DNA of 57,272 bases, from the NCBI GenBank assembly GCA_013202495.1, contig JABMQQ010000047.1:1-57272 (forward strand), written 5' to 3'. The translations under genes were made by a program, and so were the position numbers. Each line of letters opens with the position of its first letter. The stretch's first letter is position 1. This DNA comes from Fidelibacterota bacterium. Its GTDB lineage: Bacteria; Fidelibacterota; UBA8477; JABMPR01. Of the stretch, positions 17,579 to 50,321 are shown in pieces. The notes below the pieces were generated by a model. It searched no databases, was not told the origin of the DNA, and worked only from the letters and a program-made list of their open reading frames with translations.

Positions 17579-17799
17579 GATCCCACCCCTAACTGCACAG
17601 AAAACCTTCACTAAGAAACTAAGCGGCAGGATTAATTTTATTAGTCCAATTTTATAACAAATTATACGACCTCAACTTAATAATTGAATAACTTGATGAA
17701 TTTAAGGGGCTTTTTGGGCTCAAGTCGGGTTTCCTTATTGCAGCTTCATTTTTATTCTACTTGCCCCCACTCCTTACACGATTCTTCATTTATAACTTG

Positions 17800-24247: not shown

Positions 24248-24304
24248 TTACACAGTGAGTTAGATTTAATCTCAATTTGAAATTTGATTACAAAGGGGAA
24301 TAAA

Positions 24305-25663
24305 ATGAGATCCATCAACCCTAGCTCTGGAGAATTCATCAAGGAGTATCTCACCCATTCTAACGATGAGGCTACCGCGATCATCTCTCAAACCCAGGAT
24401 GCATGGAGCAATTGGAAGCAATCTGGATTTCAGGAACGTTCTGCACTCATGCTGCGTGCTGCCGCTATTCTGAGAGAGGATAAAGAAGCGCTGGCACTGC
24501 TCATGAGCCTGGAAATGGGGAAAGTCATTCATGAAGCACGTGCCGAAATCGAAAAGTGCGCCTGGGTCTGTGAATTTTATGCTGAAAAGGCTGAATCCTT
24601 CCTGGCTGATGAGATGGTGGAGACAAATGCTTCAAGAAGCTTTGTAAGCTTTGCGCCCATTGGAATCGTTCTGGCAGTCATGCCCTGGAATTTCCCCTTC
24701 TGGCAGGTCTTCCGCTTTGCCGCACCTGCTTTAATGGCAGGGAATGCTGCCGTTCTCAAGCACGCCTCCAATGTTCCGGGCTGCGCATTGGCCATCGAAG
24801 AAATCTTTTTCAAAGCCGGTTTCCCAGCGAACCTTTTTAGAACTTTGATGATATCCGCCAGTCAAGTCGAGTCGGTGATTATGAATCCCCACATCCGTGC
24901 TGTAACCTTGACTGGTAGCGAAGCAGCAGGGATGCAGGTTGCATCAATTGCGGGCCGGGCATTAAAGAAAACCGTCCTGGAACTGGGTGGCTCAGATCCA
25001 TACATCGTACTTGATGATGCGAATATTGAAAAATGTGTGGAAACAGCAGTCAATGCACGGATGATCAACAATGGTCAGAGCTGTATTGCTGCCAAACGAT
25101 TTATAGTGGTTGAATCACGATTGGAGGAGTTTGAAGCCGGTAAGACTAAGATCATGTCCACCCTCACACCCGGTGACCCTCTCCTCCCTGGTACGCAGGT
25201 AGGACCGCTGGCCCGTGAAGATCTCCGTGACGAATTGCATGATCAGGTTAAAGCAAGTCTGTTTGCTGGCGCCAGACTCCTGCTGGGCGGAAAATCAATC
25301 TCAGGACCCGGTTACTTCTATGAACCTACAGTGGTAAGCGATGTTAGATCGGGTATGAGTCTGTATCACGAAGAAACCTTTGGTCCTGTTTCTGCTATCA
25401 TCCCAGTGAAGGATGCCGATGAAGCAATAGAGGTAGCCAATGACTCCGACTTTGGTCTGGGAGGTTCGCTTTGGACCGATGATTTGGTGCTGGGTGAGCA
25501 GCTAGCCCGACAAATTGAGAGTGGAGCAGTCTTTGTTAACGGGATGACCGTTTCTGATCCTCGACTTCCCTTTGGAGGAATCAAACGCTCTGGATATGGT
25601 CGGGAGCTATCACATTTTGGTATCCGTGAGTTTACCAATATCAAATCGATCTGGATCGCCTAG
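24305..25663 (+). CDS. Aldehyde dehydrogenase, succinate-semialdehyde dehydrogenase-like
   Basis: Starting at ATG 24305, with AAAGGGG 6 bases upstream, the protein has 452 residues, the size of the compact SSADH (Sad/GabD-like) group. It is preferred over a TTG 21 bases earlier. Visible family features are PWNFPFWQ (substrate/cofactor entry), LTGSEAAG (NAD(P) binding), LELGGSDP (general-base Glu), [12 protein letters not shown] (catalytic Cys) and EETFGPV near the end. It should oxidise an aldehyde, plausibly succinate semialdehyde, to the acid with NAD(P)+. It lies 57 bases after the CotH gene with no clear terminator. Substrate assignment is tentative. Confidence 0.87.
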
Positions 25664-25807
25664 CACCGTTTTATCGTCATTTTTATATTTTAAGTGTAAT
25701 CAACAACTATCTGTGTATCAGGAATATATAGATATTCACCTCTACATATCGGCAAATTAGTTGAAAAGAACTCATTGACGATTTCAAGCCTCTCGCTGTG
25801 AAAGGTT

Positions 25808-25859
25808 GCGGGTTTATATGAGATTTTCAAACGGTCCTAGAATGAAAATGATTACCCGC
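25808..25859 (+). ncRNA. Possible structured RNA leader upstream of the permease
   Basis: The 372-base gap 25664-26035 contains nested inverted repeats. The outer pair is GCGGGT (25808-25813) with ACCCGC (25854-25859). The inner pair is ATTTTCA (25823-25829) with TGAAAAT (25843-25849). The loop is 13 bases. No U-tract follows, so it is not a simple terminator. No known riboswitch class is recognised. A TTGACA at 25960-25965 could be a -35 element, but its -10 partner is weak. Nothing else definite was seen in this gap. Confidence 0.3.
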
Positions 25860-26035
25860 TTGCTTCGTGAGATTTTAACTATTAAATGTAAGACTTATAT
25901 TGATTCCACTCAATGAAGCGGTACACCCATTTTTGGATATCAAAATTGATAGCTCGGCATTGACATATTGAGAAATTACCATTTCACTTATCGTAAGCTG
26001 CTCGAACCAGATACTTATAACACCAGGAGGTTATA

Positions 26036-27442
26036 ATTTCCACTACTGAGATAACTTCAAAAATCAGAGATTTCGGGGACTCAACCGAATACAAACGCGA
26101 TCTCGGACTCATCGAAGCTGTTTCAATTGTCATCAGCAGAATCATTGGATCAGGAATTTTTAGAACACCTGCACCTATCATGGCTCTGGTTGGCTGTACT
26201 TCCTTATTTGGCCTCGTTTGGGTCTTAGGTGGCGTCGTCACAATATTTGGGGCCGTTGTCTATGCAGAATTAGCTGCCATGATGCCCCGTTCTGGTGGTC
26301 CATATGTATATTTGAAAATGGCCTACCACCCCTTTTGGGCCTTTCTCCGAGGCTGGGCTATGTTTTTTGTCTCAGAGACGGCTTCTATTGCGGCTGTGGC
26401 CCTCATTTTTGGTGAATATCTCAAAGCGCTTTGGATCATTGCCTTTGGGGAGGCTTTTGGGCAGATCGCTCTCTATTTGATTGCTCTCACAACCATCTGG
26501 TTACTCACCATTGTTAATCTATTTGGAGTTTCGCTTAGCGGAAAAATCCAAAACTTTTTTGGCGCCGTCAAGGTGGTGGCAGTGGGTGGCATCATCGGTG
26601 CCAGTTTTACCAGTTGGTCTACCGGTTCATTTTCAAATTTTATGAATCCCCTTCTGCCAGAAGCCTTTAATGGTTCCACATTTCTGGCTGTTGGCGCTGC
26701 ATTACGATACGCTTTCTTTGCATTCAGTGGGTGGGAAGGCGCGACCTACATTGCTGAAGAAGTAAAGAATCCTCGCCGCAATCTCCCCCTCTCACTCTTT
26801 ATCGGAATTGCCGGTGTCATGGTTTTATATATGGGGGCCAATTCAGCTTATTTGTACCAATTGACACCTGCACAAATTGCAGATTCCAAATGGGTAGCTA
26901 CTGAAGCCATGAAAGTTGCCCTGGGAGCCACGGGTGGAATCCTCATTTCAGTGGCGGTGATGTTCAATACCTTTGGCAATGTGAGCACACAGATTCTCTG
27001 TAAGGCTCGCGCCTGGCATGCCATGGCCCGGGATGGCATGTTTTTCAAAAAGTTTGCAGTTCTGAGTAAAAAGCATAAAACTCCAAACAATGCACTCATA
27101 GGGCAAGGTCTCTGGGCGACTGTGCTGTTAACATTTGCCGTCAGTGTGGCCAACTCATATGAATCGATTATTGACTTTTTCTCAGCTACATCAACCGTGT
27201 TTAATCTCATGGTGTTTGCAGCGATTTTTGTTTTACGGAAGAAGTATCCTGATGTTTCAAGACCCTATAAAGCCTGGCTATACCCCTGGAGTTTGATCAT
27301 TGTATTTGTGATTTATGCGACATTTTTTGTGATTACATTGATGACGACTCTGATTCCATCGCTTATTGGTCTTGGTTTAACCAGTCTGGGATCGATTTAC
27401 TATTATTTTTATATCCATAAACCTGGAATCCGGGTGAAGTAA
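26036..27442 (+). CDS. APC-family amino acid permease with apparent ATT start
   Basis: A 468-residue, 12-segment amino-acid transporter of the APC superfamily, closest in style to the LAT group (SLFGLVWVLGGVVTIFG, YAELAAMMPRSGGPYVYL). The first ATG in frame is at 26180, but it lies after the conserved family motif IIGSGIF of membrane segment 1. That motif is coded by open codons 26036-26179, which contain no ATG, GTG or TTG. A perfect AGGAGG at 26025-26030 is 5 bases before ATT 26036. An in-frame TAA at 26018 closes the frame upstream. I therefore place the start at ATT 26036 (ATA 26033 is the alternative). The kinase gene starts 15 bases after the stop. Substrate is not predictable. Confidence 0.85.
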   Translation: MSTTEITSKIRDFGDSTEYKRDLGLIEAVSIVISRIIGSGIFRTPAPIMALVGCTSLFGLVWVLGGVVTIFGAVVYAELAAMMPRSGGPYVYLKMAYHPFWAFLRGWAMFFVSETASIAAVALIFGEYLKALWIIAFGEAFGQIALYLIALTTIWLLTIVNLFGVSLSGKIQNFFGAVKVVAVGGIIGASFTSWSTGSFSNFMNPLLPEAFNGSTFLAVGAALRYAFFAFSGWEGATYIAEEVKNPRRNLPLSLFIGIAGVMVLYMGANSAYLYQLTPAQIADSKWVATEAMKVALGATGGILISVAVMFNTFGNVSTQILCKARAWHAMARDGMFFKKFAVLSKKHKTPNNALIGQGLWATVLLTFAVSVANSYESIIDFFSATSTVFNLMVFAAIFVLRKKYPDVSRPYKAWLYPWSLIIVFVIYATFFVITLMTTLIPSLIGLGLTSLGSIYYYFYIHKPGIRVK

Positions 27443-27457
27443 GGTGAAATATTAAAA

Positions 27458-29812
27458 TTGACTAATAAATCAACACATGTCCATCAACAGCTTGCCACAC
27501 TTCTAAATACGACGCACTCGCTTGGAGTATTTGTAGAACAAGCATTGGCCACATTGCTACAGGGTAAAAAGCTCAGCAATTATTACCTAGCCATACATGA
27601 TATTGAGTCCCATATCTTATCCTTCCCATATACTCACGGTAAGAGTGAGTTTGAACAAGCCTGTGCACTGCACAGTGTGAATTCACCCCTCAAGGTCGTG
27701 ATCCAAAAACAGCAAGCTCTCACAGTAAGAACCGACGAATACCTCAGAAGTTGTGATGATATCTCAAGTATTACTGATCCGCCATCACTTTGGGTCGGTC
27801 TCCCCCTGGTAAAGGGTTCTGATGTGTTTGCAGTGCTTGTTTTTACCGCCTCTAGTGATTCACAGCTTAGCGAATTAGAGACAACCGGCCCATTCCTGGA
27901 ATCAATTCCAGAACTACTCTCTCCCTATCTTGTGACTAAAATCAGAATGGACAGTCTCGAGGAGAGCGAGCAACGGTTTAGAAGATTTGTGGAAACCTCC
28001 ATTGATATAACCTTTCAGGTTAATGGTGATGGAATTATAGACTATGTGAGCTCTAACATCGAAGCCAGATTTGGAATAGATTCTCAAACTCTCATTGGTA
28101 GAAACATCAGCACGATCACCTCAAAGAATCAAGGTCACAAGCTAAAAGAAGGGCTAAGGACCATCTCTGAAGGTAAAACGATTAGAAATCTGACCATCAA
28201 TATCCAGAGAAGCGCAGGTGAGATCATCCCCATGGAGGTGAGTGCCAGACCCATAATAGTGGGTGATAAAATTATTGGCGCCCAGGGTACAGTACGAGAC
28301 ATTACCGAGCGGAATCGGGCTCAGCAAGAGATAGAGCGTCTGGCTTTTTTCCCACTCGCCAATCCCATGCCTGTAGTGGAAGTAGATTTAGATGGTGTTC
28401 CCGGATATATAAATCCAGCTGGGATTCAACTCCTGGACAGGATGGATCTGGATAGGTCTCAGGTTTCTCAAATTCTCCCCAAGACATTTAAAACAGATAT
28501 CACAGCAGCGCGGTCGGATCAGGGTCAAATACCATCACGGGAAGTTTCTCTGGAAGGCATGCATTTGCTCTGGTCAGCCTTTTTCCTCCAAAACCAGAAC
28601 CTTTTACACTACTATGCTACTGATATCACCAACTTAAAAAAAACTGAGATAGAGCTCATCTCAGCCAAGGAACGAGCCTTGAAGAATGAGGAGGTAAAAA
28701 CGCTCTTCCTCGCCAATATGAGTCATGAAATCCGCACGCCTTTAAATTCAATTCTTGGGTTTACTGAGCTTATTGAAGAAGAAGTGAAAGATAAGTTTGA
28801 TGAGCATCTCGAAGCCTATTTTGAAACTATCTATATGAGTGGCAAAAGGCTGTGGCAGACAGTTCATCACATCCTTGATATCTCCCAGATTGAAACTGGT
28901 ACCTTTGAATTAAAAACTGAAAGCATTGATCTGAGTAAAATTGTTAAGGATCTGGGTGCATCCTTTAATTCAGTGGCTAAAGCAAAGGACCTGGAACTCA
29001 AAATCAACGTCCCGGCAATGGATATACATATTATATCAGATGAATATTGTGCGACTCAGGCCATATCCAATCTCATCGACAATGCGATTAAGTACACAAA
29101 TTCAGGGTACATCAGCCTTGATATTGAGGTTGTTGAAGACGCCGTTAAGATCACCATTAAAGACACAGGTATTGGTATGTCCAAGGAATACCAGGACATG
29201 GTGTTCGATGTCTTTTCACAAGAAAGCACAGGTTATACTAAAAACTTTCAAGGTATGGGTCTTGGATTGGCCCTGGCTCACAGATATCTCAGTTTGATCA
29301 ATGGCAATTTGCACTTTGAGAGTGAACAGGATGTCGGCAGCAAGTTTACTATACACTTCCCTGGTAGCGCTGAGCCTGCGAAGACCGATCAGATTGCAGA
29401 ACCATTACAGGCTGAGCCAACTGCCAGACCGCTTGATGCTGCTCTGGATTCAAGGATAAATATTCTGGTGGTTGAGGATGATCCAAATTCTCAAAAATTG
29501 GCCAGTTTCACTCTGAGTAAAGACTATGATCTCCATTTCGCAGAGTCAGTTGCAGATTCCAAGAAAATGCTCGAGGCACATGATGTTCAAATGATACTCC
29601 TGGACCTCTCACTGAGAGGTGACGAAGACGGCCTGGACCTGGCTCGATTCCTACGGGGAGAAGCTAAATGGAATAAGATTCCCATTGTGGCTCTCACTGC
29701 CCATGCCTTTACCTCTGATCGTGATAGATGCATGGAAGCGGGCTGCAGCGATTTCATGACAAAGCCATTCAGACTGGCTGAATTAAAAGAAACAATCCAG
29801 CGTTTGATATAG
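27458..29812 (+). CDS. Hybrid sensor histidine kinase (GAF-PAS-PAS-HisKA-HATPase-REC)
   Basis: This 784-residue cytoplasmic hybrid kinase starts at TTG 27458, with AGGTGA 10 bases upstream. Residues about 1-165 look like a GAF domain, 170-290 a PAS domain (EESEQRFRRFVETS to GTVRDITER) and 292-400 a weaker second PAS. The HisKA box is FLANMSHEIRTPLNS with phospho-acceptor His423. HATPase motifs are the N box NLIDNAIKYTNSG, then DTGIGM and GMGLGLAL. The C-terminal receiver (INILVVEDDPNSQKLA) has its acceptor Asp716 in ILLDLSL and the conserved Lys in TKPF. No membrane segment is visible, so the signal is probably cytosolic. It follows the permease by 15 bases, suggesting co-expression. No separate response regulator gene is adjacent. 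Confidence 0.92.
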   Translation: MTNKSTHVHQQLATLLNTTHSLGVFVEQALATLLQGKKLSNYYLAIHDIESHILSFPYTHGKSEFEQACALHSVNSPLKVVIQKQQALTVRTDEYLRSCDDISSITDPPSLWVGLPLVKGSDVFAVLVFTASSDSQLSELETTGPFLESIPELLSPYLVTKIRMDSLEESEQRFRRFVETSIDITFQVNGDGIIDYVSSNIEARFGIDSQTLIGRNISTITSKNQGHKLKEGLRTISEGKTIRNLTINIQRSAGEIIPMEVSARPIIVGDKIIGAQGTVRDITERNRAQQEIERLAFFPLANPMPVVEVDLDGVPGYINPAGIQLLDRMDLDRSQVSQILPKTFKTDITAARSDQGQIPSREVSLEGMHLLWSAFFLQNQNLLHYYATDITNLKKTEIELISAKERALKNEEVKTLFLANMSHEIRTPLNSILGFTELIEEEVKDKFDEHLEAYFETIYMSGKRLWQTVHHILDISQIETGTFELKTESIDLSKIVKDLGASFNSVAKAKDLELKINVPAMDIHIISDEYCATQAISNLIDNAIKYTNSGYISLDIEVVEDAVKITIKDTGIGMSKEYQDMVFDVFSQESTGYTKNFQGMGLGLALAHRYLSLINGNLHFESEQDVGSKFTIHFPGSAEPAKTDQIAEPLQAEPTARPLDAALDSRINILVVEDDPNSQKLASFTLSKDYDLHFAESVADSKKMLEAHDVQMILLDLSLRGDEDGLDLARFLRGEAKWNKIPIVALTAHAFTSDRDRCMEAGCSDFMTKPFRLAELKETIQRLI

Positions 29813-47882: not shown

Positions 47883-50321
47883 CTATTTCAAGTAGGTAAT
47901 ACGTTGTGTATTAAATTGGGTCCCATTTTCAACCTTAAGGATGTACACACCTGAGCTGACATTTGAATTGCTCAGACCTGCGAATGTAATATGGTTTAAC
48001 CCAGAGTGAACTTGTTGATCAATACTCCTCACTAATTGTCCCTTCAAATTATAAAGGGTAACGGTCAGGAGATTTGCCTCGGGAATGTATACATCAATGG
48101 CAAAGGACCCATTAAAAGGATTGGGATAGGCCTGCGAAACTTGAAAATCAACGGGGTGTTGAGTGGGGGGATCCACATCCACGGATATCTCCAAATAATC
48201 CAGGACTGCTGCCATGATGGTGTTTCTTGAGCTTTCTGGATAAATCGCTTCAAATCCCACACCCATATATACGATTCCACCTAAAGCTGTACTTTCACCA
48301 AAGCTTCCAAGATATTGAATGCCAGCTCCTCCCTGACTCGAATAGTCGGTTCCTTCATAGCGCAGACTATTCAAAGATCCGCCATATGGTTTGATGCCAT
48401 CTGGGTAGTCAACGTCATAAGTTCCATGGAAACCATTGTCAAAAGTAACACCTGATAATCCTGAGAAAATGCCGCTAGCCATCCCGTTCATGGCATATGA
48501 CTGGGCATCATCACTGATATATTCTGCCTTGAAATAATTGTGATAAAAACCAATATCACCAGCACTCCCAGCTCCTTCAAGATCATATCCGATTTCAGAT
48601 CCAGATATAAAAATTCTTCCGCCCTGCTCCAGGTATGTCTTTATGCGAGCTTGTTCTATGGAAGAAAATGAAACCGTGCTGGTTGCTTCTTCCCCACTGA
48701 TCCAATCCACAATGGCATATTCAGATAAATCAATGGCATTTGCCTCCACGGCGTCATTACTGGCGGCATCAAAAAGACGACCACTTGCTTGAATGGCAGA
48801 GCCATGCTCAATGATATAGTCAAAATTATTTACCGTTCCAGCGGTCCGTTCAAATCCCTGTACCACAAGGACACTTGATTCATCCTGGCCACTAAAGGTC
48901 ACACCAAGCACCTCAGAGAAATTACTACTGCCATGGCTGTTTGAATTTCTCACCTTAAGATACACAACCTGTCCATCCAAGAGAGTGGAGAGCAGGATAT
49001 CCTGAGTTACTGAACTATCCGCCAGCGTATACTGTTCACCATCTGCACTGGCAAACACCTCATACTGATCTGTAAAGGGTGAATAGGCACAATGCACAGC
49101 AACTGTACCATTCCCCAGATTCTTGGCGGTGAAATACCTGGAGGTTAGGGGTGGAGCCGTGGTACCAAATATATTGCTGAGCCCTCCCCATATTTCAGGC
49201 CGACCTCCATCATAACCCAGTGCCCAGATACCAATTCCCTTGATGTCTTGATCCACTGCATATTGGTACTTTGTCACGAGACTCAGAGAATCATCATACC
49301 AGACCTGATGTTGGTCGCCATTATTGTAATTGTACCAGGCTGTGGCAACGCTTGTATGATATTGTTTGCCATAGGATTGGGCACTACTCTCTGCAGCAGG
49401 ATAGAGGATGGTCGCCCCAGTTGTATTATCAGCAACAGGCGCGTTGATAGCAGTGCTGGTCACCTGCCAGTCGCGACCATACCAGGGCAACCCCAGAATG
49501 AGCTGGGAGCCATCATTCCCCGTCTTCGTCAGATAGTCCTGAATTGTACGACTGATATACCAACTGGAAAGACCACTATTTAAGGGAGAAATAGGACCTG
49601 CATTGGAACTGCCTGACCAGTAATACCCATAAGCCATGATCATGAGGCCATCACAATTGTCTGAGAGATAGTTATAGTCATACGCGCTGGACCAATCTAC
49701 TGAGGGCATGGCAATACTTACTTCAGATCCTGGAATTTGATCGTGGAAAGCCTGGGTCAGATCATGGATAAAGGTGTTAAAATTTGCCGTTGCTGAGGAA
49801 GGCACAAATTCGAAATCTATATTTACTCCGTCTGCATTCCCCTGTATCACCCTGGATATGAGGTTATCAATGGCAGCCTGGCGATAATTTGCATTACCAA
49901 GGAGTGTGGCTATTCCTGAATTGTCAAAATTGGTGACGGTGACTATGACCTTTACTCCGCGACTATGGGCCAAGTCAACGAGGCCGTTTACCGGCCAGCC
50001 ATGAGCATTAGTAATCTCACCATTATTTCCCATGTTTAATCCAAACCAGGCGACATGACTCAGAAGGTCATAGACATAGTTTTCCCAGGCGGTGCCGTTC
50101 CAATAGGGATGATATCCGAAAACAACGTGACTGGGATCTCTTAAGGCGTTACTTGGTACCAGATCTCGCGGATATCCTGTAAATCCCCCCTCCTGATCGA
50201 TTTCAACATTGCCAAACTGAGCAACCTGTTGGGCATGAGGCTTTTCTAATACATTCTGGCCGTAAAGAAGTGTACTTAACAAAAAGACACCTAGTACTGA
50301 GATTTGGATTTTACTTAAGAT
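47883..50321 (-). CDS. Secreted GH18 glycosidase with sorting domain and apparent ATC start
   Basis: An 812-residue protein when started at ATC 50321, with GGAGG (50329-50333) 7 bases upstream. No ATG, GTG or TTG exists in frame until TTG 50282, which would cut away most of the signal peptide (LSKIQISVLGVFLLSTLLYG). Residues about 50-390 are a GH18 barrel with DGVNIDFEFV, where Glu is the proton donor and Asn replaces the first Asp as in SleL/YaaH-type glucosaminidases. GLPWYGRDWQV and GIGIWALGYDGG follow. Next come a fibronectin-like region, a domain near 480-700 with flavodoxin-like look (VLVVQGFERTAG), and a YPNPFNGSF sorting domain. It lies between two NamZ genes and may release GlcNAc from peptidoglycan. 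Confidence 0.87.
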   Translation of the reverse strand: MLSKIQISVLGVFLLSTLLYGQNVLEKPHAQQVAQFGNVEIDQEGGFTGYPRDLVPSNALRDPSHVVFGYHPYWNGTAWENYVYDLLSHVAWFGLNMGNNGEITNAHGWPVNGLVDLAHSRGVKVIVTVTNFDNSGIATLLGNANYRQAAIDNLISRVIQGNADGVNIDFEFVPSSATANFNTFIHDLTQAFHDQIPGSEVSIAMPSVDWSSAYDYNYLSDNCDGLMIMAYGYYWSGSSNAGPISPLNSGLSSWYISRTIQDYLTKTGNDGSQLILGLPWYGRDWQVTSTAINAPVADNTTGATILYPAAESSAQSYGKQYHTSVATAWYNYNNGDQHQVWYDDSLSLVTKYQYAVDQDIKGIGIWALGYDGGRPEIWGGLSNIFGTTAPPLTSRYFTAKNLGNGTVAVHCAYSPFTDQYEVFASADGEQYTLADSSVTQDILLSTLLDGQVVYLKVRNSNSHGSSNFSEVLGVTFSGQDESSVLVVQGFERTAGTVNNFDYIIEHGSAIQASGRLFDAASNDAVEANAIDLSEYAIVDWISGEEATSTVSFSSIEQARIKTYLEQGGRIFISGSEIGYDLEGAGSAGDIGFYHNYFKAEYISDDAQSYAMNGMASGIFSGLSGVTFDNGFHGTYDVDYPDGIKPYGGSLNSLRYEGTDYSSQGGAGIQYLGSFGESTALGGIVYMGVGFEAIYPESSRNTIMAAVLDYLEISVDVDPPTQHPVDFQVSQAYPNPFNGSFAIDVYIPEANLLTVTLYNLKGQLVRSIDQQVHSGLNHITFAGLSNSNVSSGVYILKVENGTQFNTQRITYLK

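Follow-up and report, generated by a model that had tools for sequence, protein, structure and literature searches.

In a genome from a Neomarinimicrobiota genus of uncultured marine bacteria, an APC permease gene is very probably translated from an AUU codon at position 26036 of the 57,272-nucleotide stretch of DNA that we analyzed (the window), a judgment that concerns the initiation site and not any regulatory role. A first-pass annotation of this DNA had proposed the same ATT as the start, and its proposal is now supported by 15 aligned orthologs and by codon-position statistics.

The permease gene and its start region

The permease frame lies on the forward strand and is open from 26021, immediately after a TAA stop (26018..26020), to the stop ending at 27442. 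Counted from the ATT codon (26036..26038), the gene (26036..27442) encodes an APC permease of 468 amino acids, a reading based on profile matches, PDB relatives and dN/dS. In a scan of this frame from 26021 to 26182, the sole ATG, GTG, TTG or CTG was the ATG at 26180..26182, so that coding in this frame begins with no ATG, GTG or TTG at or close to its onset. This first conventional in-frame codon is internal to a conserved IMALVGCT stretch, is not preceded by a Shine-Dalgarno (SD) site, and is not the start. The IIGSGIF motif of transmembrane segment 1 (26141..26161) is encoded 5' of it. Upstream of the ATT, an AGGAGG site (26025..26030) is separated from it by five nucleotides (TTATA) and is predicted to pair with 16S rRNA, which places a strong SD at proper spacing to a near-cognate codon. 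The first-pass annotation had described the same arrangement, namely a perfect AGGAGG five bases ahead of ATT 26036, no ATG, GTG or TTG between the upstream stop and ATG 26180, and IIGSGIF encoded before that ATG, and our coordinates agree with it throughout. It had also stated that standard gene callers would lose the first 48 residues, and 48 codons do separate the ATT from ATG 26180.

Its assignment of the product to the APC permeases likewise holds: the protein matches PF13520 (AA_permease_2) with E=1.2e-58 and 199.5 bits against a cut-off of 27, over profile positions 1-404. The full-length start adds profile positions 1-26 and 18 bits relative to a version starting at ATG 26180, so that the family match includes the first helix. 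The best NCBIfam match is TIGR00911 (L-type amino acid transporter), at 233.8 bits against a cut-off of 701.8, and the PDB relatives are SLC7 light chains. The predicted product is thus an APC superfamily permease related to L-type amino acid transporters. It shares with this branch the whole-length profile match, including IIGSGIF in the first helix, and differs from the named NCBIfam subfamilies listed in scoring below the cut-off of every one of them.

The permease gene is preceded by an aldehyde dehydrogenase gene of the succinate-semialdehyde type (24284-25663) and followed by a hybrid histidine kinase gene (27458-29812), and homologs of both flank the permease in many of the congeners with loci that extend to these positions. 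Records from distant phyla, one from Candidatus Achromatium palustre (L043) and two from Spirochaetes MAGs (L044, L045), also contain permeases with 65-71% identity to it; these permeases may reflect either transfer or mis-binned contigs.

Start codons and coding constraint across the genus

We compared the window genome (G000) with 14 further species of the genus that have readable 5' ends. The start position is occupied by ATT in four of the 15 species (G000, G010, G018 and G009), by ATG in G015, G004, G012, G001, G002, G005 and G011, by GTG in G013 and by TTG in G007, while two species start one codon downstream (G003 with GTG, G017 with ATG). With these one-codon shifts included, the totals are eight ATG, four ATT, two GTG and one TTG; the codon kept as ATT in four species is therefore aligned with conventional starts in the other 11. 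Alternative starts can be found in G010, G009 and G018 (TTG seven codons upstream; ATG or GTG five codons downstream), but they vary by species and the window lacks all of them.

The pattern of substitutions points to the same codon. In eight species compared with the window genome, differences at codon positions 1, 2 and 3 number 26, 12 and 157 over codons 2-48, which resembles the 14, 0 and 170 found over the 54 codons that follow ATG 26180. The sequence upstream of the SD is not coding-like, with 60, 50 and 72 differences. The contrast between codons 2-48 and the upstream sequence gives a chi-square p of 1.8e-15, which is only indicative, as pooled pairwise counts share ancestry. Where dS could be calculated, dN/dS is about 0.04-0.10 for codons 2-48 and 0.01-0.04 for codons 49-468. 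These codon-position statistics support ATT 26036 as the point where coding begins.

The Shine-Dalgarno site

The hexamer AGGAGG is scarce in the window genome, with 622 copies in 3.32 Mb of strand sequence, which gives a chance probability of about 1.9e-4 for one lying exactly 5 nt ahead of a given codon and of about 1.1e-3 for any gap of 4-9 nt. Even conventional starts of the sampled genome seldom carry the motif (ATG 21/623, GTG 3/155, TTG 0/225), and the calculated SD duplex at the permease is -11.5 kcal/mol, whereas ATG starts average -5.2. The 16S and infC genes are both absent from the window genome's own draft assembly. The 16S tails of three congeners (G009, G013, G017) all end in the usual GGATCACCTCCTTTCT, to which AGGAGGT is complementary.

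GGAGGTT is retained with equal spacing in the nine nearest orthologs, whose common pattern is (A/C/T)GGAGGTT, four bases and the start codon; G013 has C, and G007 has T, as the first base. In G018 the sequence further upstream is unrelated, yet the SD, its spacing and the ATT are identical. An Rfam search of positions 25000-28000 returned neither a riboswitch nor a leader RNA. We also considered a predicted hairpin of the SD and start (GGAGGU-UAUA-AUUUCC), and rejected it as too weak and unspecific: it reaches -1.0 to -3.5 kcal/mol in the ATT species and is partly formed in most others, at about -2.0 to -2.4.

Alternative readings of the start

Three readings would place the start elsewhere or change its codon. 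Initiation at another near-cognate codon, for instance ATA 26033 or ATA 26051, is very unlikely. ATA 26033 is in frame and adjoins the ATT, but it lies just 2 nt from the SD, and the other ATT species carry ACA, TTC or ATT in its place; ATA 26051 is 20 nt from the SD and corresponds to ATG, GTG or CTG in those species. Only position 26036 is both shared and aligned with ATG, GTG or TTG elsewhere. We consider a shorter permease translated from ATG 26180 more improbable still. Although this is the first conventional start codon, using it would remove IIGSGIF and the first helix, and the codon has no SD ahead of it; moreover, the 48 codons before it are under protein-level constraint and the ATG, GTG or TTG starts of the orthologs sit 47-48 codons upstream. 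Least credible of all is a sequencing or assembly error at 26036 that hides a true ATG. The window, which is identical to contig C24 of its genome, does belong to a draft with 255 contigs and a completeness of 86%, but the identical ATT is found in G010, G018 and G009, separately named MAGs (isolates SI053_bin30, BH26 and SI036_bin79) that carry many silent differences from the window. The comparison with related genomes that had been suggested as a check against sequence error thus speaks for the ATT: as the codon, the SD and the spacing are common to separate species, an error in a single assembly is excluded and the start position is fixed, and with four separately assembled MAGs carrying ATT, reads with ATG at 26036 would be very unlikely.

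A further reading accepts initiation at AUU 26036 and departs from ours on a single point, whether the weak start is under selection. ATT would then be a nearly neutral, tolerated allele with no regulatory role, the strong SD would compensate for it, and the codon would drift among ATT, GTG, TTG and ATG. We give this reading slightly less than an even chance. It fits two facts: the codon is labile in close relatives, since G013, at a dS of about 0.35-0.37 from the window, has GTG and G007 has TTG, and the SD is no weaker in the ATG species G015, G004 and G012. On the other hand, switches from AUG to AUU are extremely rare: reconstructions found a change to AUU in 1 of 61,358 ancestral AUG starts and in 1 of 5,080 GUG starts (PMC5622118). 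ATG is also absent from all six species of the group G000, G013, G009, G018, G010 and G007, as would fit selection for a weak start.

Evolution of the start codon

These six species are grouped by a tree of two other genes (support 90/88). The whole-gene permease tree implies at least four start-codon changes, including two between ATT and a conventional start, and a poorly supported tree of the 5' part implies three ATT/conventional changes; the gene trees are poorly resolved inside the clade. The 5' regions of G000, G010 and G009 are close. In G009 (L006), the 5' part of the permease has a dS of 0.39 from the window gene (26036-27442) and the remainder a dS of 1.28, and G010 is 97% identical to the window in the permease but only 86% in tamA. 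This suggests that the permease gene has recombined within the genus, and the closeness of the G009 5' part in particular indicates that not every ATT allele arose independently. Because the ATT species are related and the trees poorly resolved, we do not count four independent origins.

Possible mechanism and consequences for expression

In initiation at AUU 26036, the initiator fMet-tRNA would pair with AUU through the first two bases, while the duplex between AGGAGGU and the 16S 3' end, 5 nt upstream, would hold the 30S subunit in place. To judge from known systems, fMet would be residue 1, and IF3 would discriminate against the near-cognate AUU and lower initiation, so that output would be a fraction of that from AUG. 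As a near-cognate codon disfavoured by IF3, AUU is expected to give low expression that rises when IF3 is scarce, and by analogy permease expression is probably low and IF3-sensitive. We regard it as about equally probable that a low or IF3-linked output of the permease is useful and that the ATT is merely tolerated.

Other ATT and ATC starts in the genus

We surveyed 1.66 Mb of the window genome (of a draft of 3.95 Mb), in stretches, for an SD followed by ATT, ATC or ATA where no conventional start is nearby. Among 1092 called genes, the starts near the onset of coding comprised 578 ATG, 201 TTG and 138 GTG, and two further convincing cases emerged, a tamA-like gene and a GH18 gene. Several other ATT or ATC candidates (among them L076:1268, window position 17662 on the reverse strand and L176:13876) were rejected for a weak SD and a negative coding score. 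The sampled stretches, which are a partial sample of the genome, contain one tRNA-Met (CAT) and nothing odd among the tRNAs.

The tamA-like Omp85/POTRA gene (L168:7938-9773, reverse strand, on contig C116 of G000) begins with ATT five bases after GGGAGG. Its start codon is ATT in each of the 19 genomes compared within the genus (congeners L215-L233), and in the window genome the first conventional start comes at codon 59, past the signal peptide. Domain matches are consistent with a tamB-tamA pair, with PF04357 upstream and PF01103 and PF07244 downstream, and both the ATT and its SD sit within the end of tamB (..GRLKFTY stop). The ATT spans two tamB codons, taking the last base of one for Lys/Arg and the first two bases of one for Phe, and could not become ATG without altering tamB. 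The second case lies in the window itself and encodes a secreted GH18 protein with a C-terminal sorting domain (47886-50321, reverse strand), with ATC at 50321 after GGAGGTGACTCC. Its nearer relatives have ATC or ATT at the same codon, never a conventional start, and the first conventional start falls inside the signal peptide. To these we add infC of the genus, which starts with ATC behind GGGAGAGA in all 11 genomes in which the 5' end could be read (L050-L061).

Together, these genes raise the speculative and rather unlikely possibility that AUU and AUC form a regular class of weak, SD-driven starts in the genus, in which the level of IF3 would set the output of a small regulon beyond infC (the permease, the tamA-like Omp85 protein and the secreted GH18 protein), the AUU of tamA being locked by the overlap with tamB. 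In practical terms, standard gene callers will misplace starts in this lineage, and the resulting gene models will lack transmembrane helices and signal peptides. The natural series of ATT, GTG, TTG and ATG at one site, behind nearly the same SD, allows direct tests of start-codon strength and of IF3 dependence.

Comparison with known systems

Few AUU, AUC or AUA starts beyond infC have experimental support, and in reconstructions fewer than 1 in 10,000 AUG starts switched to AUU (PMC5622118). Among the experimental precedents, E. coli infC, with AUU, and Streptomyces sigR, with GTC behind AGGAGGTG, are repressed by IF3, and changing the sigR GTC to ATG ruins this control (PMC5472188). The first-pass annotation had likened the permease to infC. 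At the level of sequence the likeness stands, since both have a near-cognate AUN codon behind a good SD (AUU in E. coli infC, ATC in Streptomyces, AUA in S. aureus) and the genus's own infC likewise begins with ATC; IF3-dependent control of the permease is an analogy. The permease differs from infC in being a membrane transporter and not a translation factor, and therefore has no autoregulatory loop, and its rare start is kept only in part of the genus.

The resemblance to sigR extends to a gene unrelated to translation, a perfect AGGAGG-type site, and a rare start that is conserved in related species and misplaced by gene callers. The codon differs (GTC in sigR, ATT here), and IF3 repression and function are experimental in sigR, whereas for the permease they are presumed by analogy. 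In S. aureus, cvfC1 (AUU) and ccpN (AUA) have an extended SD and, in poor medium, yield about 10% of the expression obtained with AUG (PMC13009471). Like the permease, they combine AUU or AUA with a strong SD and are conserved among relatives; they are unrelated genes of another phylum, and their starts were established by ribosome profiling and luciferase reporters, whereas that of the permease is supported by sequence comparison. The mechanism is not new, and the ATT of the permease adds an example to the class formed by infC, sigR, cvfC1 and ccpN.
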